Of a stretch of 48,083 nt of DNA, positions 17,371 through 28,396 are shown in pieces. Positions within the stretch are counted from its first letter, which is position 1, and the number at the start of each line of letters is the position of its first letter. Where the stretch lies: contig JAJFUA010000100.1 in NCBI GenBank assembly GCA_021372635.1, positions 1 to 48,083 of the forward strand, in the 5' to 3' direction. The stretch is from Desulfobacteraceae bacterium. GTDB taxonomy: Bacteria > Desulfobacterota > Syntrophobacteria > Syntrophobacterales > Syntrophobacteraceae. The notes under the pieces are model-generated. The model saw nothing but the letters and a program-made list of their open reading frames with translations, ran no database searches and had not been told where the DNA came from. A program made the translations under genes and the position numbers.

Positions 17371-17453
17371 AACAGGACCATGCCTTCGGGGCCGCTGTTG
17401 TATTCGGGCTGCGTTTCGATTTTCGTCGGACCCGGTCAAAGCTTTTTCCCGTA

Positions 17454-17601: not shown

Positions 17602-19086
17602 ATGTCTGAGAAGATAGGCCTGCGCGCGAAGGTCGTTCTGCTGGTGCTGTCTCTTCTCCTGGTTACGGTCGGAACCGGGGCCGTCACCATGTGGCTCATA
17701 TTCCGGATCGGCTCGGTTCTGGCCTACGTGATCGACAACAATGTCCAGGGACTCAGGGCATCTCAGGAAATGGAAACATCCCTGACCGTTGAAAACGGTT
17801 TCCTGACCTTTTACCTTCTGGATGGAAACCCCGAATGGCTGAACAGGATCCACACGAGTCGCAGGGAATTCGATGAATGGCTGACTGAGGCGAAGGATGC
17901 GTCCTATACCGAGCGACAGCGCAAACTCGTCGATGAAATTGCCTCGAAACATTCGGGTTATGCGCACCTGCAGGAGAAAGTAGTCGAACGATACCTTTCC
18001 GGAGACAGGGAGGAGGGGTATGCCCTCCACCTGGCCGCGGAGAAGGATTTTCATGCACTGCGCGACCTTTGCAATTCCTACAAGGCGATCCATACGCGGG
18101 GAATCGAGGAAGCCCGCTCGGGAATCCGCTCCCAGGGCCGCTTCATCAATTCCATGATACTCTTCTGCCTGCCTGCCGCTCTCATCATCGGGGTTGTGCT
18201 CATCTACATCCTGGTCAACAACATCCTGGAGCCGATCAGACTCCTGGCCGCGGGGGCGCATGCGAAAAACTCCGAAATACGTGTCGTCAACGAAGTCAAA
18301 GAACTTACGAAGAGAGTCTCCAGCCTTATGGAAGACGTGGATCACACCCAGACGCAACTGCAGCTCAGCCAGGAACACCTGCTGCAATCCGAAAAGCTGG
18401 CCATGGTCGGAAAGCTTGCCGCGAGTGTTGCGCATACGATCCGCAATCCGCTCACTTCCGTAAAGATGCGTCTTTTCTCCATGGAACGTTCTCTGGGCCT
18501 ATCAGAGACACAGAAGGAGGATTTTGAAGTCATCTCCGAGGAAATACGCCATATCGACAATATCCTTCGCAACTTCCTCGAATATTCACGTCCCCCGAAG
18601 CTGAAGATTCAAAGCATAAGCCTGTCCGATGTGGTCGATATGGCCATACAGCTTCTCAAGCATCGGATCGAGTCGTACGGTGTGGAACTTGAACTCTATC
18701 GGCAAAGAAAGCTCCCGGACATCGAGGGAGACGCCGAACAGTTGAAAGAGGTTTTTGTCAACCTGATCCTCAACGCCTGTGAAGCGATGGTGGACGGTGG
18801 AACCATCATCATCAGGGAAGAGGAGGGCATTGCCGAACCGTTCGGCCATGTTCTCGTCGTCAGGGTACGCGATAACGGACCCGGCATTCCCGAATCCGTC
18901 CTGGACAGAGTGTTCGAGCCGTTCTTCAGCATGAAGGAAGAAGGTACAGGCCTGGGCCTGAGTATCGCCAGGCGGATCATCGAGGATCACCACGGTTGTT
19001 TGAACGTTCGGTCGAAGGAAGGCAAGGGGACCACCTTCACAATCACTCTGCCGTGTAAAGAGGATAGGGCATGGCTAAGATCCTGA
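17602..19086 (+). CDS. membrane sensor histidine kinase (NtrB/AtoS class)
   Basis: A 494-residue kinase: TM1 about residues 9-33, a roughly 145-residue periplasmic sensor region of helical type, TM2 about 180-205, a HAMP-like linker and coiled coil, then the dimerisation domain with phospho-acceptor His278 (AASVAHTIRNPLTSVKM), N box (VNLILNACEAM), G1 (DNGPGIP), F (EPFFSMKEEGTGLGLS). The input ligand is unknown; the periplasmic domain has no PAS motif I recognise. The GGAGG lies 13 nt before the ATG, somewhat far. Its end overlaps the response regulator start by 16 bp, so the two are co-translated. Confidence 0.93.
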   Translation: MSEKIGLRAKVVLLVLSLLLVTVGTGAVTMWLIFRIGSVLAYVIDNNVQGLRASQEMETSLTVENGFLTFYLLDGNPEWLNRIHTSRREFDEWLTEAKDASYTERQRKLVDEIASKHSGYAHLQEKVVERYLSGDREEGYALHLAAEKDFHALRDLCNSYKAIHTRGIEEARSGIRSQGRFINSMILFCLPAALIIGVVLIYILVNNILEPIRLLAAGAHAKNSEIRVVNEVKELTKRVSSLMEDVDHTQTQLQLSQEHLLQSEKLAMVGKLAASVAHTIRNPLTSVKMRLFSMERSLGLSETQKEDFEVISEEIRHIDNILRNFLEYSRPPKLKIQSISLSDVVDMAIQLLKHRIESYGVELELYRQRKLPDIEGDAEQLKEVFVNLILNACEAMVDGGTIIIREEEGIAEPFGHVLVVRVRDNGPGIPESVLDRVFEPFFSMKEEGTGLGLSIARRIIEDHHGCLNVRSKEGKGTTFTITLPCKEDRAWLRS

Positions 19087-20507
19087 TTGTAGACGACGAT
19101 CATCAGTTGCGCCACAGTTTCGAAAAACTTTTGATGCAGGAAGGACACGATGTCCGGACGGCATCGAGCGGCGAGGCCGGACTGGCCGCAATCAGGGAAT
19201 GTGCACTCGACCTGGTGATCATGGACGTTCGCCTGCCCGGGAAAAGCGGTCTCGAAACGTTTCGAGAGGTACGCGAATTCGAACCCAGGCTTCCGGTCAT
19301 CATCATGACCGCCTTCGGCACGACCGAAACCGCCATTGAAGCTACGAAGATGGGCGCCTTCGACTACATTCTGAAGCCTTTCGACATTCCCGAAGTGCTT
19401 GTCCTGATCCGGCAGGCGGTTGAGGCGGGCCGGTTTATGCGCTCACAGGTGGACGTGGATGTCGTCGCCGATTCCTGCTCCCGGGAGGCGATCGTCGGCC
19501 GCAGCAAAGCAATGCAGGAGGTTTACAAAGCCATCGGCCGGGTGGCCCCCACCGATGCCACGGTGCTCATCCGCGGGGAATCGGGCACCGGCAAGGAACT
19601 TGCCGCGAGAGCCATCTACCAGCACAGCCTGCGGGCAAATAAACCTTTCCTGGTGATCAACTGCGTCGCCATTCCGGAGACGCTCCTCGAGAGCGAACTG
19701 TTCGGGTATGAAAAGGGCGCCTTTACGGGGGCGGTCAACCGGCGTGTCGGGAGGATCGAACAGGCCAACGGCGGGACGGTCTTTCTAGATGAAATCGGGG
19801 ACATGCCGTTCGGCATCCAGTCGAAGATTCTTCGCCTGTTGCAAGAGAGAAGCATCGAGCGGCTGGGCGGCAGAGAGCCGATTCCCGTCGACGTGCGAAT
19901 CATCGCGGCCACGAACCGCGACCTGGAGGCGGCTCTGGCCGAAGGCCGATTCCGCGAGGATCTTTATTACCGTCTCAGGGTGGTCACACTGGCGTTGCCC
20001 CCTCTGCGGGAACGCACTGGAGACATACCGCTTCTTGCGGACTACTTTTTGAAGAGATTTGCGAAGGAAATGGAAATCGCGAGTCCCGGCATCAGCCAGC
20101 TTGCGATGGAACATCTTTCCCGGCACCATTGGCCCGGAAACGTGAGGGAACTGGCGAACACGCTGCAAAAGGCCCTGATCTTCAGCAGAGGTTGCCCGCT
20201 GGGTCCCGAGGAGATCGCACGAGGCATCAAGGGAGACGTTCTGGAAAGGACCGCGGAAGGAGAATCCTCCGACGAAGCGATTCGCCGCTGGATCCGGAAG
20301 GAACTTGCTTCGGAAGCGGGAGAAAACGCGTTCGACGTTCTCATGGACCGGGTGGCGTGCGCCATCGTTGCGGAGGCACTGAACCTTTCCGGTGGTAACC
20401 GCAGTCGCGCCGCGAAATTATTGGGACTTTCCCGCCCTACATTGTTGTCCAAAATCGAAAAGTATCGCCTGAAGATAGACACGTCCGTTTCGACAGATTC
20501 CCCATGA
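19071..20507 (+). CDS. NtrC-family sigma-54-dependent response regulator
   Basis: A 478-residue activator with all three domains. Receiver 1-120 with acidic pocket D8-D10, phospho-acceptor D52 (VIMDVRLPG) and K102 (LKPF). AAA+ domain about 140-380: Walker A GESGTGKE (169-176), the sigma-54-contacting GAFTGA (216-221), Walker B TVFLDEIGD (236-244). C-terminal Fis-type HTH about 441-467 (GGNRSRAAKLLGLSRPTLL). Intact GAFTGA means it can activate sigma-54 holoenzyme. It overlaps the kinase gene by 16 bp and is its probable partner. The nearest sigma-54 promoter is 340 bp downstream (20845-20859), the likely target. Confidence 0.96.
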   Translation: MAKILIVDDDHQLRHSFEKLLMQEGHDVRTASSGEAGLAAIRECALDLVIMDVRLPGKSGLETFREVREFEPRLPVIIMTAFGTTETAIEATKMGAFDYILKPFDIPEVLVLIRQAVEAGRFMRSQVDVDVVADSCSREAIVGRSKAMQEVYKAIGRVAPTDATVLIRGESGTGKELAARAIYQHSLRANKPFLVINCVAIPETLLESELFGYEKGAFTGAVNRRVGRIEQANGGTVFLDEIGDMPFGIQSKILRLLQERSIERLGGREPIPVDVRIIAATNRDLEAALAEGRFREDLYYRLRVVTLALPPLRERTGDIPLLADYFLKRFAKEMEIASPGISQLAMEHLSRHHWPGNVRELANTLQKALIFSRGCPLGPEEIARGIKGDVLERTAEGESSDEAIRRWIRKELASEAGENAFDVLMDRVACAIVAEALNLSGGNRSRAAKLLGLSRPTLLSKIEKYRLKIDTSVSTDSP

Positions 20508-20898: not shown

Positions 20899-21027
20899 AT
20901 GAAAACGAAGGCCACCGTTACGGCGAAGCGTCCCGGAAAGGATTTCCTGGCCAGCTTCGATGCACTCTTAGGCATAGGATTTATGTCATCGGCAGTCGCG
21001 GCACACATGAACGGAGGTTTTCAATGA
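20899..21027 (+). CDS. putative 42-aa small protein, translationally coupled to TauE/SafE gene
   Basis: ATG at 20899 opens a 42-codon frame ending in TGA at 21025-21027, which overlaps the next gene's ATG as ATGA. The product has a basic N-terminus (MKTKATVTAKRPGK) and a moderately hydrophobic segment (FLASFDALLGIGFMSSAVAA), so it might touch the membrane. It is the first ORF behind the sigma-54 promoter. No Shine-Dalgarno of note precedes it, only A-rich sequence, which lowers confidence. It could be a leader peptide or a small subunit of the transporter; no family recognised. Confidence 0.42.
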   Translation: MKTKATVTAKRPGKDFLASFDALLGIGFMSSAVAAHMNGGFQ

Positions 21028-22319
21028 GCGTTACAAGACAGGTGTTCGAATTTTTGAAGGCGGCTTCTGCTGCCCATGCACGGTGGGATCTCGAGGTCTC
21101 TCTTTCCATCCTGAAAAACCGCAAGAAGCTTCTCATGCTCCTCGTCATGCTCATGCCCATCCTTGCGGTGAGCCTGCTCGAAGCGGCGCCGCTGCTGGGC
21201 GGGAAGGAAGCGTATGCTCCAGCATTCTATTCCACGCAAATCTTCCTGATATCCATAGCCATCGGCATCGCGGCCGGTCTGATCACGGGATGCATCGGCG
21301 CCGGAGGCGGGTTCATCATCACGCCTGCTCTCATGGCGGCGGGCATCAAAGGCATTCTCGCAGTCGGTACGGACCTGTTTCATATCTTCGCCAAAGCCAT
21401 CATGGGAACGGCCGTGCACAAAAAACTGGGCAACGTATCCACCAAGCTCGCAATGGCCTTCCTGGTGGGCTCCGGCGCGGGCACCTTCGTCGGCGGGGCC
21501 GTCAACAAGGGCCTGTATAACAAAAACCCCATCCTGAGCGACGCCTTCATCAGCCTTGTCTATGCCGTCCTGCTCGGATTTCTCGGCTTCTATTCGCTTT
21601 CCGACTATCTGCGATCCAGGAAAACGGACGCAGCCGGCGACGCTCACGGCAGTTCTTCCACAGGAACAGGATCTTTTGCCCGCAAACTCCAGACGGTCAA
21701 TATCCCCCCGATGATCTCCTTCGACGAAGACTTCGTTCCGGGCGGGAAGAAAATCTCCTGGGTCGTAATCGCGGGCGGCGGTCTCATCGTCGGCATCATG
21801 GCGGCAATCATGGGCGTCGGCGGCGGATTCATCACATTCCCCATGTTCGTCTACGTATTCGGCGTATCGTCCATGACGACGGTTGGAACGGACATCCTGC
21901 AGATCATCTTCACGGCGGGCCTCGGAGCGATCGCTCAATATGCGATCTACGGCTACGTATTCTATACGCTGGCCATGGGAATGCTGATCGGTTCCCTGGT
22001 GGGAATTCAGGTTGGAGCACTCACGACCAAGGTCGTGAAGGGAATCCATATCCGAGGATTCTATGCCGTGTCCATTCTGGCCGGGTTCGTAAACCGGGCG
22101 GCGACGCTTCCCAAGAAACTCATGGATCTCGAAGTGATCAATATGCCCGTGGAGCTTGCCAAGGGAATCGAATCGTTCGGGAACGTTCTCTTCTGGGTGG
22201 CCGTCGGAATCTTCGGCGGATGGATCTTTGCAAAATTCTTCGCCAACCTCGGACAACTCAGAGAAGACGTGACCGAAACCTCCAAGTCCACCATAACGAA
22301 ATCCCTCGAAGCTCGATAG
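21024..22319 (+). CDS. TauE/SafE-family membrane transporter
   Basis: A 431-residue inner-membrane protein of the TauE/SafE (DUF81) family, whose members are proposed anion exporters for sulfite, sulfoacetate or similar organosulfur compounds. Two inverted halves each begin with the family motif: GCIGAGGGFIITPALMAAG and MGVGGGFITFPMFVYVFG. About eight hydrophobic helices follow an unusually long N-terminal segment with one extra TM (about 35-58); a hydrophilic loop of about 50 residues divides the halves. ATG is preceded by GGAGG at 7 nt. It is the main gene behind the sigma-54 promoter. Substrate not determinable here; sulfite or a sulfur anion would suit a sulfur-metabolising bacterium. Confidence 0.9.
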   Translation: MSVTRQVFEFLKAASAAHARWDLEVSLSILKNRKKLLMLLVMLMPILAVSLLEAAPLLGGKEAYAPAFYSTQIFLISIAIGIAAGLITGCIGAGGGFIITPALMAAGIKGILAVGTDLFHIFAKAIMGTAVHKKLGNVSTKLAMAFLVGSGAGTFVGGAVNKGLYNKNPILSDAFISLVYAVLLGFLGFYSLSDYLRSRKTDAAGDAHGSSSTGTGSFARKLQTVNIPPMISFDEDFVPGGKKISWVVIAGGGLIVGIMAAIMGVGGGFITFPMFVYVFGVSSMTTVGTDILQIIFTAGLGAIAQYAIYGYVFYTLAMGMLIGSLVGIQVGALTTKVVKGIHIRGFYAVSILAGFVNRAATLPKKLMDLEVINMPVELAKGIESFGNVLFWVAVGIFGGWIFAKFFANLGQLREDVTETSKSTITKSLEAR

Positions 22320-22334
22320 AAAGGAGAAGAACAC

Positions 22335-23045
22335 ATGCTGATCGCAAACAAATCCTCTTTCATGGTCGGCTCCATTCTTGCCGTGACCTTTTGGGGCGCG
22401 CTCACGCTGATCTTCTCTCCCATCTTCGGAGGGAAGAACGGCTTCGAATACTCTGATGACCTTTTCAATAAACTGGCAAAAGGCTCCAGCTATTTCATCC
22501 CGCAGATCGTCAAGGACTCCCAAAAGTTCAACGGGAACAATATCAGCGTCACCGCTAAAGTGGACAAACCGGAAAATGCTCAGAGGGCGCAGCATATATT
22601 CAACCTGGCAGGGGCAAAGGTGGAGACCAACGGAAGCGAACTGAAGCTCAGCGGGGACCTCGGAGTGATTCTCGCCGCAGCACTGAAGGACTCCGATGCG
22701 ATGTACCACAACCGGGGGAATGAAGTGGCCACCCGCTACGGCATGGATGAAAAAGATGCCATGGCCCTGTGGTGGAGCGTTCTCAACAAGTCCGTGAAGG
22801 AACTTCAGAAAGCCGGGAAGATCGAGGAGGCAAACGGCGTTTTCGAAGCGATGCAGAAGGCCATCGAACCTGCGTACAACTTTTACAGAATCGATGCGGA
22901 AAGCGTGACGAGCAAGGCCGGGACACTGACCGGACTGCTGAGCTTCTACATCGTATATACCATGTGGTGGGGATTCGCGATCTACTCGCTCTTCGACGGG
23001 CTTGGACTCAGCATGAAAAAGGCCAGGGTCAAGAAAGAAGTCTAA
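22335..23045 (+). CDS. unknown two-TM membrane protein of the TauE operon
   Basis: A 236-residue protein, start after AAAGGAGAA, 15 bp behind the TauE/SafE gene. TM1 about residues 10-30, a soluble middle part of about 160 residues, TM2 about 205-225 and a basic tail (KKARVKKEV), so both ends are probably cytoplasmic and the middle periplasmic. The middle has a short beta region (NNISVTAKVDKPENAQRAQ) and a helical part with a WWSVLNKSVKEL helix. No domain recognised. Its tight coupling suggests it is an accessory subunit of the transporter. Confidence 0.8.
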   Translation: MLIANKSSFMVGSILAVTFWGALTLIFSPIFGGKNGFEYSDDLFNKLAKGSSYFIPQIVKDSQKFNGNNISVTAKVDKPENAQRAQHIFNLAGAKVETNGSELKLSGDLGVILAAALKDSDAMYHNRGNEVATRYGMDEKDAMALWWSVLNKSVKELQKAGKIEEANGVFEAMQKAIEPAYNFYRIDAESVTSKAGTLTGLLSFYIVYTMWWGFAIYSLFDGLGLSMKKARVKKEV

Positions 23046-23065
23046 GAAATCCGAGCGCCACGAAT

Positions 23066-23101
23066 GCGGCGGAGCGCTTCCCGATACGAGCGCTCTGCCG
23101 C
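23066..23101 (+). terminator. long stem-loop between the membrane protein gene and the receiver gene
   Basis: GCGGCGGAGCGCT (23066-23078) pairs with AGCGCTCTGCCGC (23089-23101) over 13 bp with one G-U pair and a 10-nt loop, 21 bp after the stop. No U-tract, so it may be an mRNA-stabilising or partial terminator hairpin. It lies where the longest version of the next ORF would start, which argues for a later start. Confidence 0.5.
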
Positions 23102-23195
23102 ACGCCGGGTTCGCAATATGCCTTATGATCCCGATGCGCAACTGATGAAAACAGTGTCCGCGAAAATAGCATCTTTTCTCGATGGCGGATTCGAG

Positions 23196-23615
23196 ATGAG
23201 GACCGATGTGATCGTCATACTGGTTGCAGACAGGAACCGGCACGTCCGGGACCTGCTGCAGCGTGAACTGGGAGCCGAAGGCTACGAAGTCCGGATAGCC
23301 CGTGACGGCCGGGAAGTCATGGCGATCCTCGACGGGAAGAGCCCGCCCAACCTGCTGGTTCTGGACCTGGAAATCCCTTTCATGAACGCCGGGATAGTCA
23401 TGGAGAAGCTCCGGAAACGTGCGGCTCCGATTCCCGTCATCATCCACACCTTCCTTGCCGATGACAGCACCTGCGCGCTGGAAGCGGGACAGGGATTCAC
23501 CGTAGTGGAAAAAACGGGGGATACGGACCGGCTGCGAACCGCCATCGATGAAATGGCGTGCAGGTTCTATCCCGACCGCTACGCATGCCTGAAACAATCC
23601 GCCCGCCCTCAATAA
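23196..23615 (+). CDS. stand-alone response regulator receiver domain (atypical)
   Basis: A 139-residue CheY-like receiver with phospho-acceptor D57 (LLVLDLEIPFMNAG), T85 (VIIHTFLADD) and K106 (VVEKTG). The usual acidic pair is reduced to a single Asp (VADRN, D12), and the K site lacks the KP dipeptide, so phosphorylation may be altered. No output domain. The frame is open to 23064, but a stem-loop lies there; ATG at 23196 with GGCGGA 6 nt upstream puts the first beta strand right at the N-terminus. Alternatives are 23118 and 23145. Partner kinase could be the one at 17.6 kb. Confidence 0.78.
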   Translation: MRTDVIVILVADRNRHVRDLLQRELGAEGYEVRIARDGREVMAILDGKSPPNLLVLDLEIPFMNAGIVMEKLRKRAAPIPVIIHTFLADDSTCALEAGQGFTVVEKTGDTDRLRTAIDEMACRFYPDRYACLKQSARPQ

Positions 23616-23961
23616 ACGGCACCGCGCCCGCCGCTTCTGTCTTATCCACAACGCTCGCCTCTTTCGTTCCGTGAAAGACCTGCCGCAATGCCGGAGTCAC
23701 ACGGAATTTTCTTCCCATCCATGAACCCGGGCGAATTCACCCGGCCATTGGGCTATTTCATTTCGTTCTGGCCATTTCTTTCATAAAGAGAGAAAATACA
23801 CAATCATGGTTGAGCATATCTGCCATGAACGGACAGCCCTGTCCGGAACACTCTGCACGCAGTTGCGCTGAAGAATTATCGCGCGGAGTCGAAAGCTTGA
23901 CGGCGGGCGATCATTTCGCCGGTCTGTTCCGGAGATTCCCCTTTCGGAGGAGGTGATCGTT
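23616..23961. other. intergenic region between the two receiver genes
   Basis: 346 bp on the same strand. A CCCGGG...CCCGG repeat (around 23727-23742) could form a small hairpin. I looked for a second sigma-54 promoter; the best candidates (CTGGCC near 23770 and TGCACG-TTGC near 23855) fail on spacing or the GC at -12. No gene seen. Confidence 0.4.
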
Positions 23962-24375
23962 GTGGACACGCTCAGCGTTCTTCTTGTGGATGACGAGGTT
24001 GAATTTCTGGAAACTCTTGAAAAGAGACTCAAGAAGAGGAAGCTTTCCGTAACGGTGGCCAACAATGGGGAAGACGCCCTTGCACTGTTGGAGCAGACTC
24101 CTCTCGACGTCGTGGTCCTCGATGTTAAAATGCCGGGGATGGGCGGCCTCGAAGTGCTTCGACGGATCAAGGCAAGCAAACCTTACGTGGAAGTCATCAT
24201 GCTGACGGGGCATGCGAATGTCGAAATGGCCATAGAGGGAATGGAGCTTGGTGCATTCGATTACCTCATGAAGCCCATGGACATTGACGAACTCCTTTAC
24301 AAGCTCCAGGACGCCTATAAGAAGAAGCTCCTTCACGAAAGAAATGCTGCCGAAAGAGCAACGGAAGTTCCCTGA
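23962..24375 (+). CDS. stand-alone response regulator receiver domain
   Basis: A 137-residue CheY-like receiver with every key residue: D10/D11 (LLVDDE), phospho-acceptor D54 (VVLDVKMPGMGG), T82 (IMLTGHANVEMA) and K104 (YLMKPMDIDELL). It ends in a basic helix without an output domain, so signalling must be by protein contact or phosphate relay. GTG at 23962 sits 8 nt behind GGAGGAGG; the GTG at 23953 is too close to that site. It is followed after 127 bp by the PEP-synthase-like gene. Confidence 0.9.
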   Translation: MDTLSVLLVDDEVEFLETLEKRLKKRKLSVTVANNGEDALALLEQTPLDVVVLDVKMPGMGGLEVLRRIKASKPYVEVIMLTGHANVEMAIEGMELGAFDYLMKPMDIDELLYKLQDAYKKKLLHERNAAERATEVP

Positions 24376-24502
24376 GCATCACCCCGCCCCCAGACCGATA
24401 TGGTGCGTTTCCGGCCAGGGATAGACGAAAGCGCTCATGACGTGCCTTTGGGCCACGGACTTTTCGACCGAAGAATTCCTGCATTTTACCTTCAGAGGTG
24501 TT

Positions 24503-27154
24503 ATGGGTATTCTGTCGAACTTATTGGAGAAGCTTGGTCTCAAGAAATCCGTCGAAAGATTGACCGACTTGGAAATCGAAAACCTGCGCACCGTCTTCAA
24601 GGCCCGATATCACAATTTCAAACTGCTGTTGAGTGCGAACAACAAGGCGCTCGAGATCATGGCGGACATGGAGGATGCGTTGCGGGGCACGCGTCCGTTC
24701 GGAATGTCCTTTGTCAGGGCCAACAGCACGGCGGTGCTGGTAAACGTCTACCGCATCATCAGGAACCTCGATCAACTTGCCCCGGGCAAATACCACGAAC
24801 TCTACGACAACTTCAAATCGATCCAGGAAGGCATCGATCAACTGCTCTCCGGCAAAAAACATACCCGGGAGACGAGCCTGGTTTTCTCGTTATCCCGGGT
24901 CAACAGGCACATGGCCGACATTGTCGGCAGCAAGATGGCGAATCTCGGCGACGTTTTCAATGAACTTCGGCTGACGGTGCCCCGCGGGTTTGTAATCTCC
25001 GCCTCCGCCCAGGAGTACTTCTTCGAACACAACGATCTCCAGGCGGAAATCGACCGGAGACTCCAGGCTTCCGATGCCGAGCAACTCGACCAGCTTTACG
25101 AACTGAGCGCCGACATTCAGCAACTGATCATACGCGCGAAAGTGCCGAAAGTCGTCGAAGAGGCCGTCAGGGATGCCTATCACGAGCTTGAAAAGACCGC
25201 GGGCGCGGACGTCAAGGTATCCATGCGCAGCAGCGCGCTGGGCGAAGACAGTGCCGGAATGTCTTTTGCGGGGCAGTATCGGTCCGAACTCAACGTGAGT
25301 TCCGAGCACCTGCTCGACGCGTACAAGGAGATCATCGCCAGCAAGTACAGCTTGCAGGCGATCGCCTACCGTTTAAACCGGGGCATTATGGACGAGGACG
25401 TTTCCATGTGCGTCGGGTGCATGGCGATGGTCAACGCCCGTTCCGGTGGAGTCATATACTCCCGCAATCCGCTCAATATCCGGGACGACAGCATCACCAT
25501 CCATTCCGTCTGGGGGTTGCCCAAATCCGTTGTGGACGGCAGCGTCGCAACGGATCGCTTCATCGTATCGCGAAGCAAGCCGTGTTCCATTACGGGCAGG
25601 GACATACAACCCAAGAGGCAGAAATTCGTCTGTTATCCGGAAGAGGGGGTCTGCCGGCTGGATGTTACCGGCGAGAACGCCGCGATGCCTTCGATCAGCG
25701 ATGAAGAAGCGGGCGCGCTCGCAGCCATAGCCGAGAGGCTGGAGGAATACTACGGTTCGCCTCAGGATATCGAATGGGCGATCGATACGGCCGGAACCCT
25801 GTATGTTCTGCAATGCCGCCCGCTCAAGCAACTCGACCCGCCGGGCCGGGAATCCTCTGAAATGAGGCCGAAAACGGAAGATGACGCAGACATTCTGCTC
25901 GAAGGAGGGGCCACGGCGAGCCCCGGCATTGCCGCCGGACATCTTTTTGTGGTCAGAAAGAACAGCGATACGCTCCGTTTCCCGGAAGGAGCGATCCTCG
26001 TGGCTCCTCAGGCAATGCCCCGACTGGCCGCGCTGTTGAGCAGGGCCGTTGCCCTCGTCACCGAACAGGGAAGCGCCGCCGGGCATCTCGCAAACGTGGC
26101 CCGGGAGTTCGGCATTCCCGCCATCCTGGGATTGCAGTCGGCCACCGAAGTGCTGGCAACCGGCGATCTGGCGACGGTGGATGCCGACGGCAGGAGGGTC
26201 TATCGGGGTATAAAGGAGTCTCTCCTCGATCAATCTAGGGTTCCGAAGACCAGGCTGATGGAGGGCAGTCCGATCTTATCCCTCGCCACGGAAGTTTCCA
26301 GGCATGTCGTGCCCCTGAATCTCATCGATCCCGACAGGGCCGATTTCAAGCCCGGATGCTGCCGCACCTTGCACGATATCACCCGTTTCTGCCACGAAAA
26401 GGCCGTCAAGGAAATGTTCAGTTTCGGAAAAGAGCATCACTTCTCGGAACGGGCCAGCAAGCAACTGGTCTGCGGCTTCCCGATGCAATGGTGGGTGATC
26501 AATTTGGACGACGGCTTCAAAGAGGATGTGGAAGGCAGGTTCGTCGCCCTCGACAATATCGTTTCCATTCCCATGCTCTCGCTGTGGGAAGGCATTGTAG
26601 CCGTCCCGTGGGCCGGTCCGCCGCCGGTTGACTCCAAAGGGCTCATGTCCATTCTCCTCGAAGCAAGCACGAACCCGGCGCTGGACCCTTCCATGCCCAG
26701 TCCGTACAGCAACAGGAATTATTTCATGCTGTCCCGGAACTTTTGCAGCTTGAACTCGAGATTCGGCTTCCATTTTTCGACTGTTGAAACCCTGGTCGGA
26801 GAAAGACCGAACGAAAACTACATCAGTTTTCACTTCAAGGGCGGAGCCGCCGATTTTCCAAGGCGCCTGCGGCGCGCTCGGTTTGTTGCCGGGCTTCTCG
26901 ATGAATTCGATTTTCGCACCGAAGTGCGAGAAGACGGTTTGATGGCGAGGATCGAGGGATACGACCAAGAGTTCATGAAAGAACGGCTGAAGGTCCTCGG
27001 ATATTTGCTGATCCACACGCGCCAGTTGGATATGGTCATGTCCAACGACGCCTCTTGCCAGGAGCATCGGCAGAAACTCCTGAACGATATTGCTGGGTTT
27101 ATGAATGCTTCGTCGACATCCAGCGGCGCATCCTCTCCCTCTTTCCCCACCTGA
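24503..27154 (+). CDS. PEP-synthase-like protein with unrecognised C-terminal half
   Basis: An 883-residue protein. Residues 1-130 are helical and unrecognised. About 140-455 is the ATP-grasp PEP/pyruvate-binding domain (GSKMANLGDVFNELRLTVPRG, MRSSALGEDSAGMSFAGQY, ARSGGVIYSRNP, DIEWAIDTAGTLYVLQCRPL). About 475-565 is the swivelling phosphohistidine domain with His528 in SAAGHLANVAREFGIPAILG; the usual T-(S/C)-H reads A-G-H. The C-terminal PEP-binding TIM barrel is absent; about 315 residues of unknown fold replace it. It can probably autophosphorylate on His528 but not act as ordinary PEP synthase. ATG with AGAGG 4 nt upstream. Neighbours are a receiver and a Usp. Confidence 0.85.
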   Translation: MGILSNLLEKLGLKKSVERLTDLEIENLRTVFKARYHNFKLLLSANNKALEIMADMEDALRGTRPFGMSFVRANSTAVLVNVYRIIRNLDQLAPGKYHELYDNFKSIQEGIDQLLSGKKHTRETSLVFSLSRVNRHMADIVGSKMANLGDVFNELRLTVPRGFVISASAQEYFFEHNDLQAEIDRRLQASDAEQLDQLYELSADIQQLIIRAKVPKVVEEAVRDAYHELEKTAGADVKVSMRSSALGEDSAGMSFAGQYRSELNVSSEHLLDAYKEIIASKYSLQAIAYRLNRGIMDEDVSMCVGCMAMVNARSGGVIYSRNPLNIRDDSITIHSVWGLPKSVVDGSVATDRFIVSRSKPCSITGRDIQPKRQKFVCYPEEGVCRLDVTGENAAMPSISDEEAGALAAIAERLEEYYGSPQDIEWAIDTAGTLYVLQCRPLKQLDPPGRESSEMRPKTEDDADILLEGGATASPGIAAGHLFVVRKNSDTLRFPEGAILVAPQAMPRLAALLSRAVALVTEQGSAAGHLANVAREFGIPAILGLQSATEVLATGDLATVDADGRRVYRGIKESLLDQSRVPKTRLMEGSPILSLATEVSRHVVPLNLIDPDRADFKPGCCRTLHDITRFCHEKAVKEMFSFGKEHHFSERASKQLVCGFPMQWWVINLDDGFKEDVEGRFVALDNIVSIPMLSLWEGIVAVPWAGPPPVDSKGLMSILLEASTNPALDPSMPSPYSNRNYFMLSRNFCSLNSRFGFHFSTVETLVGERPNENYISFHFKGGAADFPRRLRRARFVAGLLDEFDFRTEVREDGLMARIEGYDQEFMKERLKVLGYLLIHTRQLDMVMSNDASCQEHRQKLLNDIAGFMNASSTSSGASSPSFPT

Positions 27155-27427
27155 CGGCACAAAAATGCTCCTGCTTCTGTAAATCGAGCACATCCGCCCG
27201 TTGACGGATCGCGCGAATGCGCCTATGAGATGGCTTGCCGGGGCTAATGCGATCGTTCTCCAGTGTTCCGGGAACTTCGCGGGGCTCGATCACGGCCGGA
27301 AGGGACATCTTGGCCAGGTCGGTATTATGATATAGAATGGTTGTGAAGAATTTTCCTTTGCACATTGTTCTTTTTTCCTAATCCCGCGCAATCGTCTCTT
27401 TTGCCCCTTCGTAAAAGGAGATGCCAT

Positions 27428-28396
27428 ATGTCCACAATGAAGAAAAAACGTATATTGATTGCCGTCGACGGTTCTCTCCAGGCCCTGGAGGCGGTGCGTT
27501 ACGTAAGTAAAGTGCTGCCAGGGGAAAGGATCGGCGTTGTTTTGATGCATATCGTGACCAGGGTGCCTGAGTCCTTCTGGGACCTGGAGCACGAACCCGC
27601 ATACCACTATCGAATTGTCGACATCGATGAATGGGAAGCCCGCCAGCGGAAGATGGTCGATGAATTCATGGACCACTCGCGGGATATGCTCCTCGGTGCC
27701 GGCGTCCGTGAGCAAGATTTGACCGTGACCGTACGCGACCGCAAAGAAGGGATCGCAAGAGACATTATTGCGGAATCGCGGAAGGGATTTGACGCGGTCG
27801 TTGTCGGACGCAGGGGGGTGAGCGAGTTGAAGGATATGGTTCTCGGCAGCATTGCCAACAAGCTCATCGAAAGGCTTTCCGCCTGCCCCGTGTGGGTGGT
27901 GGGTGGTGCACGGTCCTGCGAAAGAATCCTCCTGTGCGTGGACGGTTCGGAAGGTGCCGGACGGGCGGTTCAGTCCGCCGCCGGCATGCTTGCCGGCGCT
28001 CCCGACGTGCAAGTGACCCTGCTGCACGTCGACAGAAGCATGAACATCTTCCGACAGGTCTTCGGCGGGGCCCCACGCCCGGAGAGAGAGGGGGAATTGG
28101 CCAAAGGGGCCGAGGGAGAAGCGGAAGCGGCAAGCCGGAGGATCCAGCCGGCATTCGATGAAGCGAAAAACATCCTGTTGCAGTCCGGTCTGCCCGGAGA
28201 CAGAATCGTCCAGCACATCCTGACCGGGGCCGGCAGCCAGGCCGGCGCCATAGTCGACTACGCCGAACGGGAAGAATATGGAACGATCGTGGTCGGGCGA
28301 AGAGGACTGACCAAAGTCCAGGAATTCTTCATGGGCCGCGTCAGCAATAAGGTCGTGCAACTGGCGAAGGACAGAACGGTGTGGGTGGTGAACTGA
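27428..28396 (+). CDS. tandem universal stress protein (UspA x2)
   Basis: A 322-residue protein with two complete Usp domains: domain 1 begins KRILIAVDGSLQALEAV and ends with the nucleotide-binding pattern GRRGVSELKDMVLGSIANKLI; domain 2 begins ERILLCVDGSEGAGRAV and ends GRRGLTKVQEFFMGRVSNKVV. Both carry the G-x2-G-x9-G-(S/N) ATP-type loop, unlike the Usp at 16.4 kb. ATG follows AAAGGAGA at 6 nt; upstream in-frame codons are not supported. It closes the cluster of signalling genes at 17.6-28.4 kb on the plus strand and may be transcribed on its own. Confidence 0.92.
   Translation: MSTMKKKRILIAVDGSLQALEAVRYVSKVLPGERIGVVLMHIVTRVPESFWDLEHEPAYHYRIVDIDEWEARQRKMVDEFMDHSRDMLLGAGVREQDLTVTVRDRKEGIARDIIAESRKGFDAVVVGRRGVSELKDMVLGSIANKLIERLSACPVWVVGGARSCERILLCVDGSEGAGRAVQSAAGMLAGAPDVQVTLLHVDRSMNIFRQVFGGAPRPEREGELAKGAEGEAEAASRRIQPAFDEAKNILLQSGLPGDRIVQHILTGAGSQAGAIVDYAEREEYGTIVVGRRGLTKVQEFFMGRVSNKVVQLAKDRTVWVVN

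Follow-up and report, generated by a model that had tools for sequence, protein, structure and literature searches.

In the current study, an 883 amino acid (aa) protein encoded in the window, i.e. the whole 48,083-nucleotide stretch of DNA that was analysed, is identified as a member of a large unnamed dikinase-like family of sulfate-reducing bacteria. As judged by alignment, its ATP-binding and phosphohistidine residues are intact, and the position of the PEP-binding barrel of PEP synthase is occupied by a new C-terminal domain. The protein is probably a signalling or transport enzyme rather than an enzyme of carbon metabolism, and we see an even chance that it is a receiver-linked dikinase that takes its signal from a histidine kinase and a stand-alone receiver and controls or serves transport by a TauE/SafE (TSUP) permease. 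The first-pass annotation of this DNA had noted neither the recurring TauE/SafE permease nearby nor the association with dsrA, and it mentioned no paralogues and no published genetics on a matching gene cluster.

The gene comprises the following parts (window coordinates):

24503..27154, + strand: dikinase-like coding sequence (P0001), ATG start, 883 aa; relatives are 32-67% identical over near full length
24560..24856, + strand: all-helical N-terminal region, residues 20-118 (AF2 helices at 22-60, 68-92 and 99-115; conservation)
24917..25840, + strand: ATP-grasp domain PPDK_N, residues 139-446 (Pfam, E 2.5e-95)
25892..26218, + strand: phosphohistidine swivel domain, residues 464-572 (Pfam PEP-utilizers mobile domain at 493-562, E 2.6e-19)
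26084..26086, + strand: codon of the phospho-acceptor His528 in the motif A526-G527-H528 (H in 97 aligned copies, Q in 4)
26240..27115, + strand: new C-terminal domain, residues 580-871, at the position of the PEP-binding barrel (no Pfam, NCBIfam or PDB match)

A second in-frame ATG lies upstream at 24437, and the closest homologues fit the start at 24503. E57 and L100 of the N-terminal helical region are invariant in alignment A1, while K144, R242, E424, Q437 and R439 of the ATP-grasp domain are conserved, both in an alignment with solved PEP synthases and in a tally over the approximately 100 family copies that were collected. Beyond PPDK_N and the PEP-utilizers mobile domain, a Pfam search of the protein returned nothing significant, and neither residues 1-130 nor 575-883 gave anything above threshold in Pfam or NCBIfam; sequence matches in the PDB were to PEP synthases and RPH and, weakly, to PPDK, pyruvate kinase and enzyme I, in all cases within the two known domains. 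The first-pass annotation had reported an ATP-grasp and a phosphohistidine domain (His528, with AGH), the absence of the catalytic TIM barrel, and some 130 N-terminal and 315 C-terminal residues that were unrecognised, all of which is borne out by the present searches. At the phosphohistidine site the protein reads G-S-A-A-G-H, as opposed to the G-G-x-T-S/C-H motif of PEP synthase and PPDK, which it does not match except for the conserved His. G527 is present in 84 of the approximately 100 copies, with S, C or D in paralogues, and the 'GH' is thus a mark of the protein's clade and near relatives rather than an oddity of a single protein. Since the residue preceding the catalytic His of the Hpe dikinase (HpeH) can be Ala with activity being kept (PMC12167813), the A-G-H sequence is no argument against activity.

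The PEP-utilizers_C barrel (PF02896) was absent from the 883-aa protein and from all 44 family members searched (E<=0.5). With the same library the barrel was detected in L007 and L008, two further proteins of this genome, which served as positive controls, and the negative result is therefore not a failure of the tool. Furthermore, the C-terminal domain, which was predicted with confidence (pLDDT 87.6, pTM 0.77), has a predicted secondary structure unlike that of a beta/alpha barrel. That the protein might be a PEP synthase or PPDK so divergent that its barrel goes unrecognised finds a point in its favour in the fact that the best NCBIfam matches are PEP synthase models; these, however, cover residues 123-613 only and score far under their curated cut-offs (332.1/739.75 and 344.9/598 bits; TIGR01418 / PRK06464). 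Together with the absence of PF02896 in the face of positive controls and the predicted fold, these scores rule out a PEP synthase with a hidden barrel, a reading which has next to no likelihood and which sequence and predicted structure, within their limits, exclude. Profile searching and structure prediction of the C-terminal part, proposed at the outset as a check, returned no family and no barrel, and the earlier suggestion that phosphate is passed to a target other than pyruvate holds to the extent that the acceptor is probably not pyruvate. As to the barrel having been 'swapped', the new domain does occupy its position and we infer the swap itself, no intermediate having been found.

The C-terminal domain contains 15 columns that are invariant in 55 diverse members, among them D625, H631, H757, N772 and R791. 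Its principal motifs are as follows:

26372..26398, + strand: helix motif H624-D625-x5-H631-E632 (D625 and H631 occur in every copy with letters there, dead copies included)
26759..26875, + strand: R753-x-G-x-H757 and N772-Y ... GGA 780-783 ... R787 / R791 (conserved)

The domain had no significant sequence match in the PDB and no Pfam or NCBIfam family, and a PDB fold search with a model of the isolated domain (residues 580-871) gave no match at E<=0.001. This absence of a fold match extends to the RIF-binding domain fold, and an RPH-type substrate domain at the C-terminus was accordingly ruled out. Weak, non-significant Foldseek matches of the last part of the domain to YbjN- or type-III-chaperone-like structures (4h5b, 2plg, 3kxy; E 0.08-0.5) offer a faint structural hint which, if taken up, would point to a protein partner. 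Across the 59 genomes of the phylum that were sampled, the open reading frames (ORFs) found were nearly all of at least approximately 680 aa and typically of 850-900 aa, with a few shorter ones of 370-604 aa; a stand-alone C-terminal domain was not seen in this sample, in which some of the 370-604-aa ORFs may reach contig ends.

A scan of public genomes yielded 57 loci, mostly in Desulfobacterota, the others lying in some Nitrospirae/Magnetobacteriaceae, in one Thermoanaerobaculales metagenome-assembled genome (MAG) and in one genome labelled Riflebacteria. Other genomes hold several copies each, with a maximum of 12 per genome; the source genome holds three further copies, which are 34-39% identical and one of which is cut by a contig end. 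The same genome also encodes a dikinase of unusual architecture (L005:1435-3783, on G000:C305), in which the PEP-utilizers domain precedes PPDK_N and which is part of an extended open frame, given as 1729 aa by the genome search. In the 59-genome sample, dsrA was present in 22/22 genomes with the family as opposed to 7/37 without it (Fisher p 1.7e-10), and, when counted by taxonomic family, in 15/15 as opposed to 6/29 (p 2.4e-7). As loci and genomes are not independent, these p-values overstate the significance; the dsrA test also includes shared ancestry.

At the locus, the dikinase gene is preceded by genes for a histidine kinase, a sigma-54 regulator, a TauE/SafE permease, a 236-aa protein and two receivers, a combination that recurs elsewhere:

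17713..19086, + strand: histidine kinase (Pfam HisKA and HATPase_c; the ORF opens at 17380 and the start is uncertain)
19071..20507, + strand: sigma-54-dependent response regulator (Pfam Sigma54_activat, 3.5e-73)
21024..22319, + strand: TauE/SafE (TSUP) permease, 431 aa (Pfam TauE, 6.8e-37; neighbourhood statistics)
22335..23045, + strand: conserved protein of 236 aa with no Pfam family, probable permease partner (31 homologous ORFs in the fetched loci)
23064..23615, + strand: second, more divergent receiver (Pfam, 7.8e-13)
23953..24375, + strand: single-domain response regulator beside the dikinase (Pfam Response_reg, 8.2e-33; DD, D, T and K receiver residues)
27422..28396, + strand: universal stress protein pair (Pfam Usp; module membership unsure)

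Usp genes are also near the dikinase in L010 and L011, and the 236-aa protein, which travels with TauE, is probably a partner of the permease. A TauE gene lies within 10 kb of 24 of the 33 dikinase loci in eight genomes, as compared to approximately 1.8 expected from TauE density, although four of the eight genomes are congeneric and the loci are not independent; the remaining 9/33 loci are without TauE in that distance, some of them on short contigs. Several paralogous dikinase clades each have their own type of TauE, and the distances among dikinases and among neighbouring TauE proteins correlate (Mantel r 0.58, p 2e-4, 29 pairs), a correlation in which organism phylogeny is still included. 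In a Nitrospirae MAG (L060:1736-8493) the TauE is 79% identical to that of our locus and the adjoining dikinase only 34% identical, a mismatch that hints that the permease part was transferred or exchanged partners. In genomes of the genus of Desulfovibrio sp. A2, a gene adjoining a TauE pair (L088:6827-7540, L091:16680-17474) was considered as encoding a binding protein, which was ruled out as Pfam identifies it as Fe/Mn superoxide dismutase.

Among the 49 copies with at least 4.5 kb of flank on both sides, a single-domain receiver occurs within 1.5 kb of 24 and within 6 kb of 38, and a histidine kinase within 6 kb of 39. In one complete genome a receiver is directly beside three of four copies, against approximately 19 single-domain receivers genome-wide by our own count. 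The link to neighbouring receivers, which had been raised as a possibility in the first-pass annotation, stands as an association, genomic and, through published work considered below, genetic. In many clades no gene lies closer to the dikinase than the receiver, and the HD and HE pairs, which share a helix, resemble by eye the H-box of histidine kinases; both points would suit a phosphorelay in which His528 passes phosphate to the receiver aspartate, directly or via the H624-D625 / H631-E632 helix. Such a relay is nevertheless very improbable, as hhalign gave neither the N- nor the C-terminal domain a probability of homology to histidine kinases or receivers above 1% (all were <1%), and genuine kinases that can supply the receiver mostly lie close by.

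Of the approximately 100 aligned copies, only a few have lost the ATP-grasp residues or His528. Judged by their residues, the inactive copies form two groups. The first, which combines H528Q with an altered ATP site, comes from the genus of Desulfovibrio sp. A2, and the second is the middle dikinase of a cluster of three, in which the ATP site is dead; both retain C620, H624, D625, H631, E632, H757, N772 and R791. In comparison with active copies, the H528Q group has an identity of 0.31 in the ATP-grasp domain (0.43 among active copies) and of 0.42 in the C-terminal domain (0.42 among active copies). Since the motifs are kept in copies without His528 or an ATP site, and since the domain has not drifted in the H528Q copies, the C-terminal domain seems, from these alignments, to have a role of its own that is independent of catalysis in the same chain. 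The degenerate clade (H528Q, K144A/L, E424D, Q437H; L078, L069, L086, L087 and also L088:13414-16230 and L091:7976-10807) is found within a few kb of an intact copy and in several loci has a receiver of its own, the two making up an active/pseudoenzyme pair. Elsewhere three dikinase genes are lined up, with a receiver gene behind the first one (L114:5177-13624, L106:6489-14483, L092:7024-15430), and the middle one, with its dead ATP-grasp site and retained His528, suggests hetero-complexes. The upkeep of such pseudo-copies (H528Q or ATP-grasp dead) beside active ones, with conserved C-terminal motifs, could also be read as the sign of a regulatory scaffold or energy-charge sensor, in which the receiver, the permease or the 236-aa partner would sense a conformation fixed by ATP binding and by phosphorylation of His528, and no phosphate would be transferred onward. 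We regard this as improbable, given that the ATP site and His528 are both conserved in the great majority of copies, which argues for turnover.

Concerning genetic data, a screen for nitrate resistance identified a cluster in D. vulgaris and D. alaskensis (DVU0251-DVU0245 / Dde_0597-Dde_0605) that encodes TauE, a hypothetical protein, PtxB, a kinase, a receiver, a PPDK-like protein and a phosphatase (PMC4001038). Transposon mutants of DVU0251 (TauE), DVU0250, DVU0247 (receiver) and DVU0246 (PPDK-like) grew equally with and without 100 mM nitrate, a DVU0245 mutant was still inhibited by nitrate, and the authors suggested a leaky thiosulfate transporter (PMC4001038); for DVU0250 the published pooled and single-mutant data disagree, and the transposon insertions may be polar. 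A similar order is found in L117 (genus of Desulfovibrio sp. A2), namely TauE, a 196-aa protein, a phosphonate-binding protein, a kinase, the dikinase and a DSP phosphatase. The sizes are alike, with the 196-aa protein corresponding to DVU0250 (588 bp) and the 119-aa receiver of this clade, which was typed in L090 and L115, to DVU0247 (360 bp). The dikinases of L090, L115 and L117 are members of the family in a distant paralogous clade that is only approximately 30% identical to the 883-aa protein. Like the latter, DVU0246 / Dde_0604 is annotated with ATP-grasp and mobile domains beside TauE, a receiver and a kinase (PMC4001038), whereas the matching clade differs in having its own TauE, a phosphonate-type binding protein and a DSP phosphatase. 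Although DVU0246, as annotated (2235 bp), is shorter than the family and was compared by annotation and gene content rather than by sequence, its putative membership of the family draws support from the loci L090, L115 and L117. It was ruled out as an orthologue of the 883-aa protein, as the gene set of the nitrate cluster accompanies the other paralogous clade (L090, L117). If the link to this cluster holds, the single phenotype of permease, receiver and dikinase mutants would place these proteins in one pathway, in which the dikinase is a positive factor for the permease. A dual-specificity-type phosphatase lies beside the dikinase of this clade (L117:12114-14177, L090:4751-6172) and is a possible antagonist of it.

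In the receiver-linked dikinase that we propose, the ATP-grasp domain would use ATP to phosphorylate His528, and the swivel domain would then carry the phosphate to a ligand or partner protein on the new C-terminal domain, at the place which pyruvate has in PEP synthase. The phosphorylated receiver would gate this cycle, perhaps via the N-terminal helical domain, and the cycle would act on or with the TSUP permease. Directly visible in the sequences are the domain architecture, the conserved catalytic residues, the fusion and conservation of the new domain, the proximity to receiver, kinase and permease genes and the association with dsrA; what we infer is that phosphate is transferred, what accepts it, that the receiver makes contact and in which direction control runs. 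The main rival is a catabolic small-molecule dikinase (cf. rifampin phosphotransferase, phenylphosphate synthase and HpeHI), for which TauE would import the substrate, the C-terminal domain would bind it and the enzyme would phosphorylate it, the two-component genes merely regulating uptake. Barrel-less dikinases with the same ATP-grasp and swivel domains do phosphorylate small molecules (PMC12167813; PMC4844700), and the invariant Asp, His, Asn and Arg residues of the C-terminal domain are such as a ligand-binding site would have. Up to 12 paralogues per genome and recurrent stand-alone receivers would, however, be unusual for a catabolic enzyme, the C-terminal motif residues are retained in catalytically dead copies, the domain has no sequence relationship to any solved structure and the domain order is unlike that of RPH, such that we consider the metabolic role unlikely, if less so than the scaffold.

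How sulfate, thiosulfate and other sulfur anions enter sulfate-reducing bacteria is a standing question, to which this family may be relevant. In D. vulgaris no SulP transporter is essential for sulfate transport, and TSUP proteins are abundant in sulfate reducers although functions could not be assigned to them (PMC5840216). The family connects a group of TSUP permeases with specific kinases and receivers and with a phosphohistidine enzyme, one domain of which is absent from the searched libraries, and it provides a frame for the unexplained nitrate-resistance cluster of Desulfovibrio, which is of relevance to the control of oil-field souring. In addition, it represents another barrel-less branch of the dikinase superfamily, for which a regulatory role is plausible. 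No description of the C-terminal domain, of the sulfate-reducer-linked family or of its tie to TSUP permeases and receivers was found in open-licence papers, and members are presumably labelled 'PEP/pyruvate-binding domain-containing protein' in present databases.

With PEP synthase (pyruvate, water dikinase; TIGR01418, PRK06464; 2ols, 8a8e) the protein shares the order of ATP-grasp and swivel domains (in the fold search, 464 columns aligned at 29% identity), and it differs in lacking the PEP/pyruvate barrel, in its extra N-terminal helices and in having G-H for T-S/C-H. Barrel-less dikinases are already known (PMC4844700, PMC12167813), and in RPH and the small-molecule dikinase superfamily the ATP-grasp and swivel domains likewise occur without the barrel. 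The order in RPH, however, is ATP-grasp, RIF-binding substrate domain and swivel, whereas in this protein the swivel lies in the middle and is followed by the new domain, and the best stretch of the RPH model covers residues 126-449 only (194/999 bits). Phenylphosphate synthase PpsAB, CreHI and HpeHI also have barrel-less dikinase parts and a non-pyruvate acceptor, but consist of two polypeptides with an RPH-type substrate domain rather than of one 883-aa chain. The swivel domain is homologous to that of enzyme I of the PTS and of PtsP, from which the protein differs in that it has an ATP-grasp domain in place of the barrel and of any above-threshold N-terminal domain of enzyme I, both of which it lacks. 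It is conceivable, though we would put it somewhat short of an even prospect, that the family constitutes a new signalling output, in which TSUP anion permeases of sulfate reducers would be switched by a phosphohistidine enzyme that is driven by ATP, gated by a receiver and equipped with an acceptor domain of its own; such a system would, like the PTS, couple phosphohistidine transfer to transport, but would be driven by ATP and a two-component system rather than by PEP.
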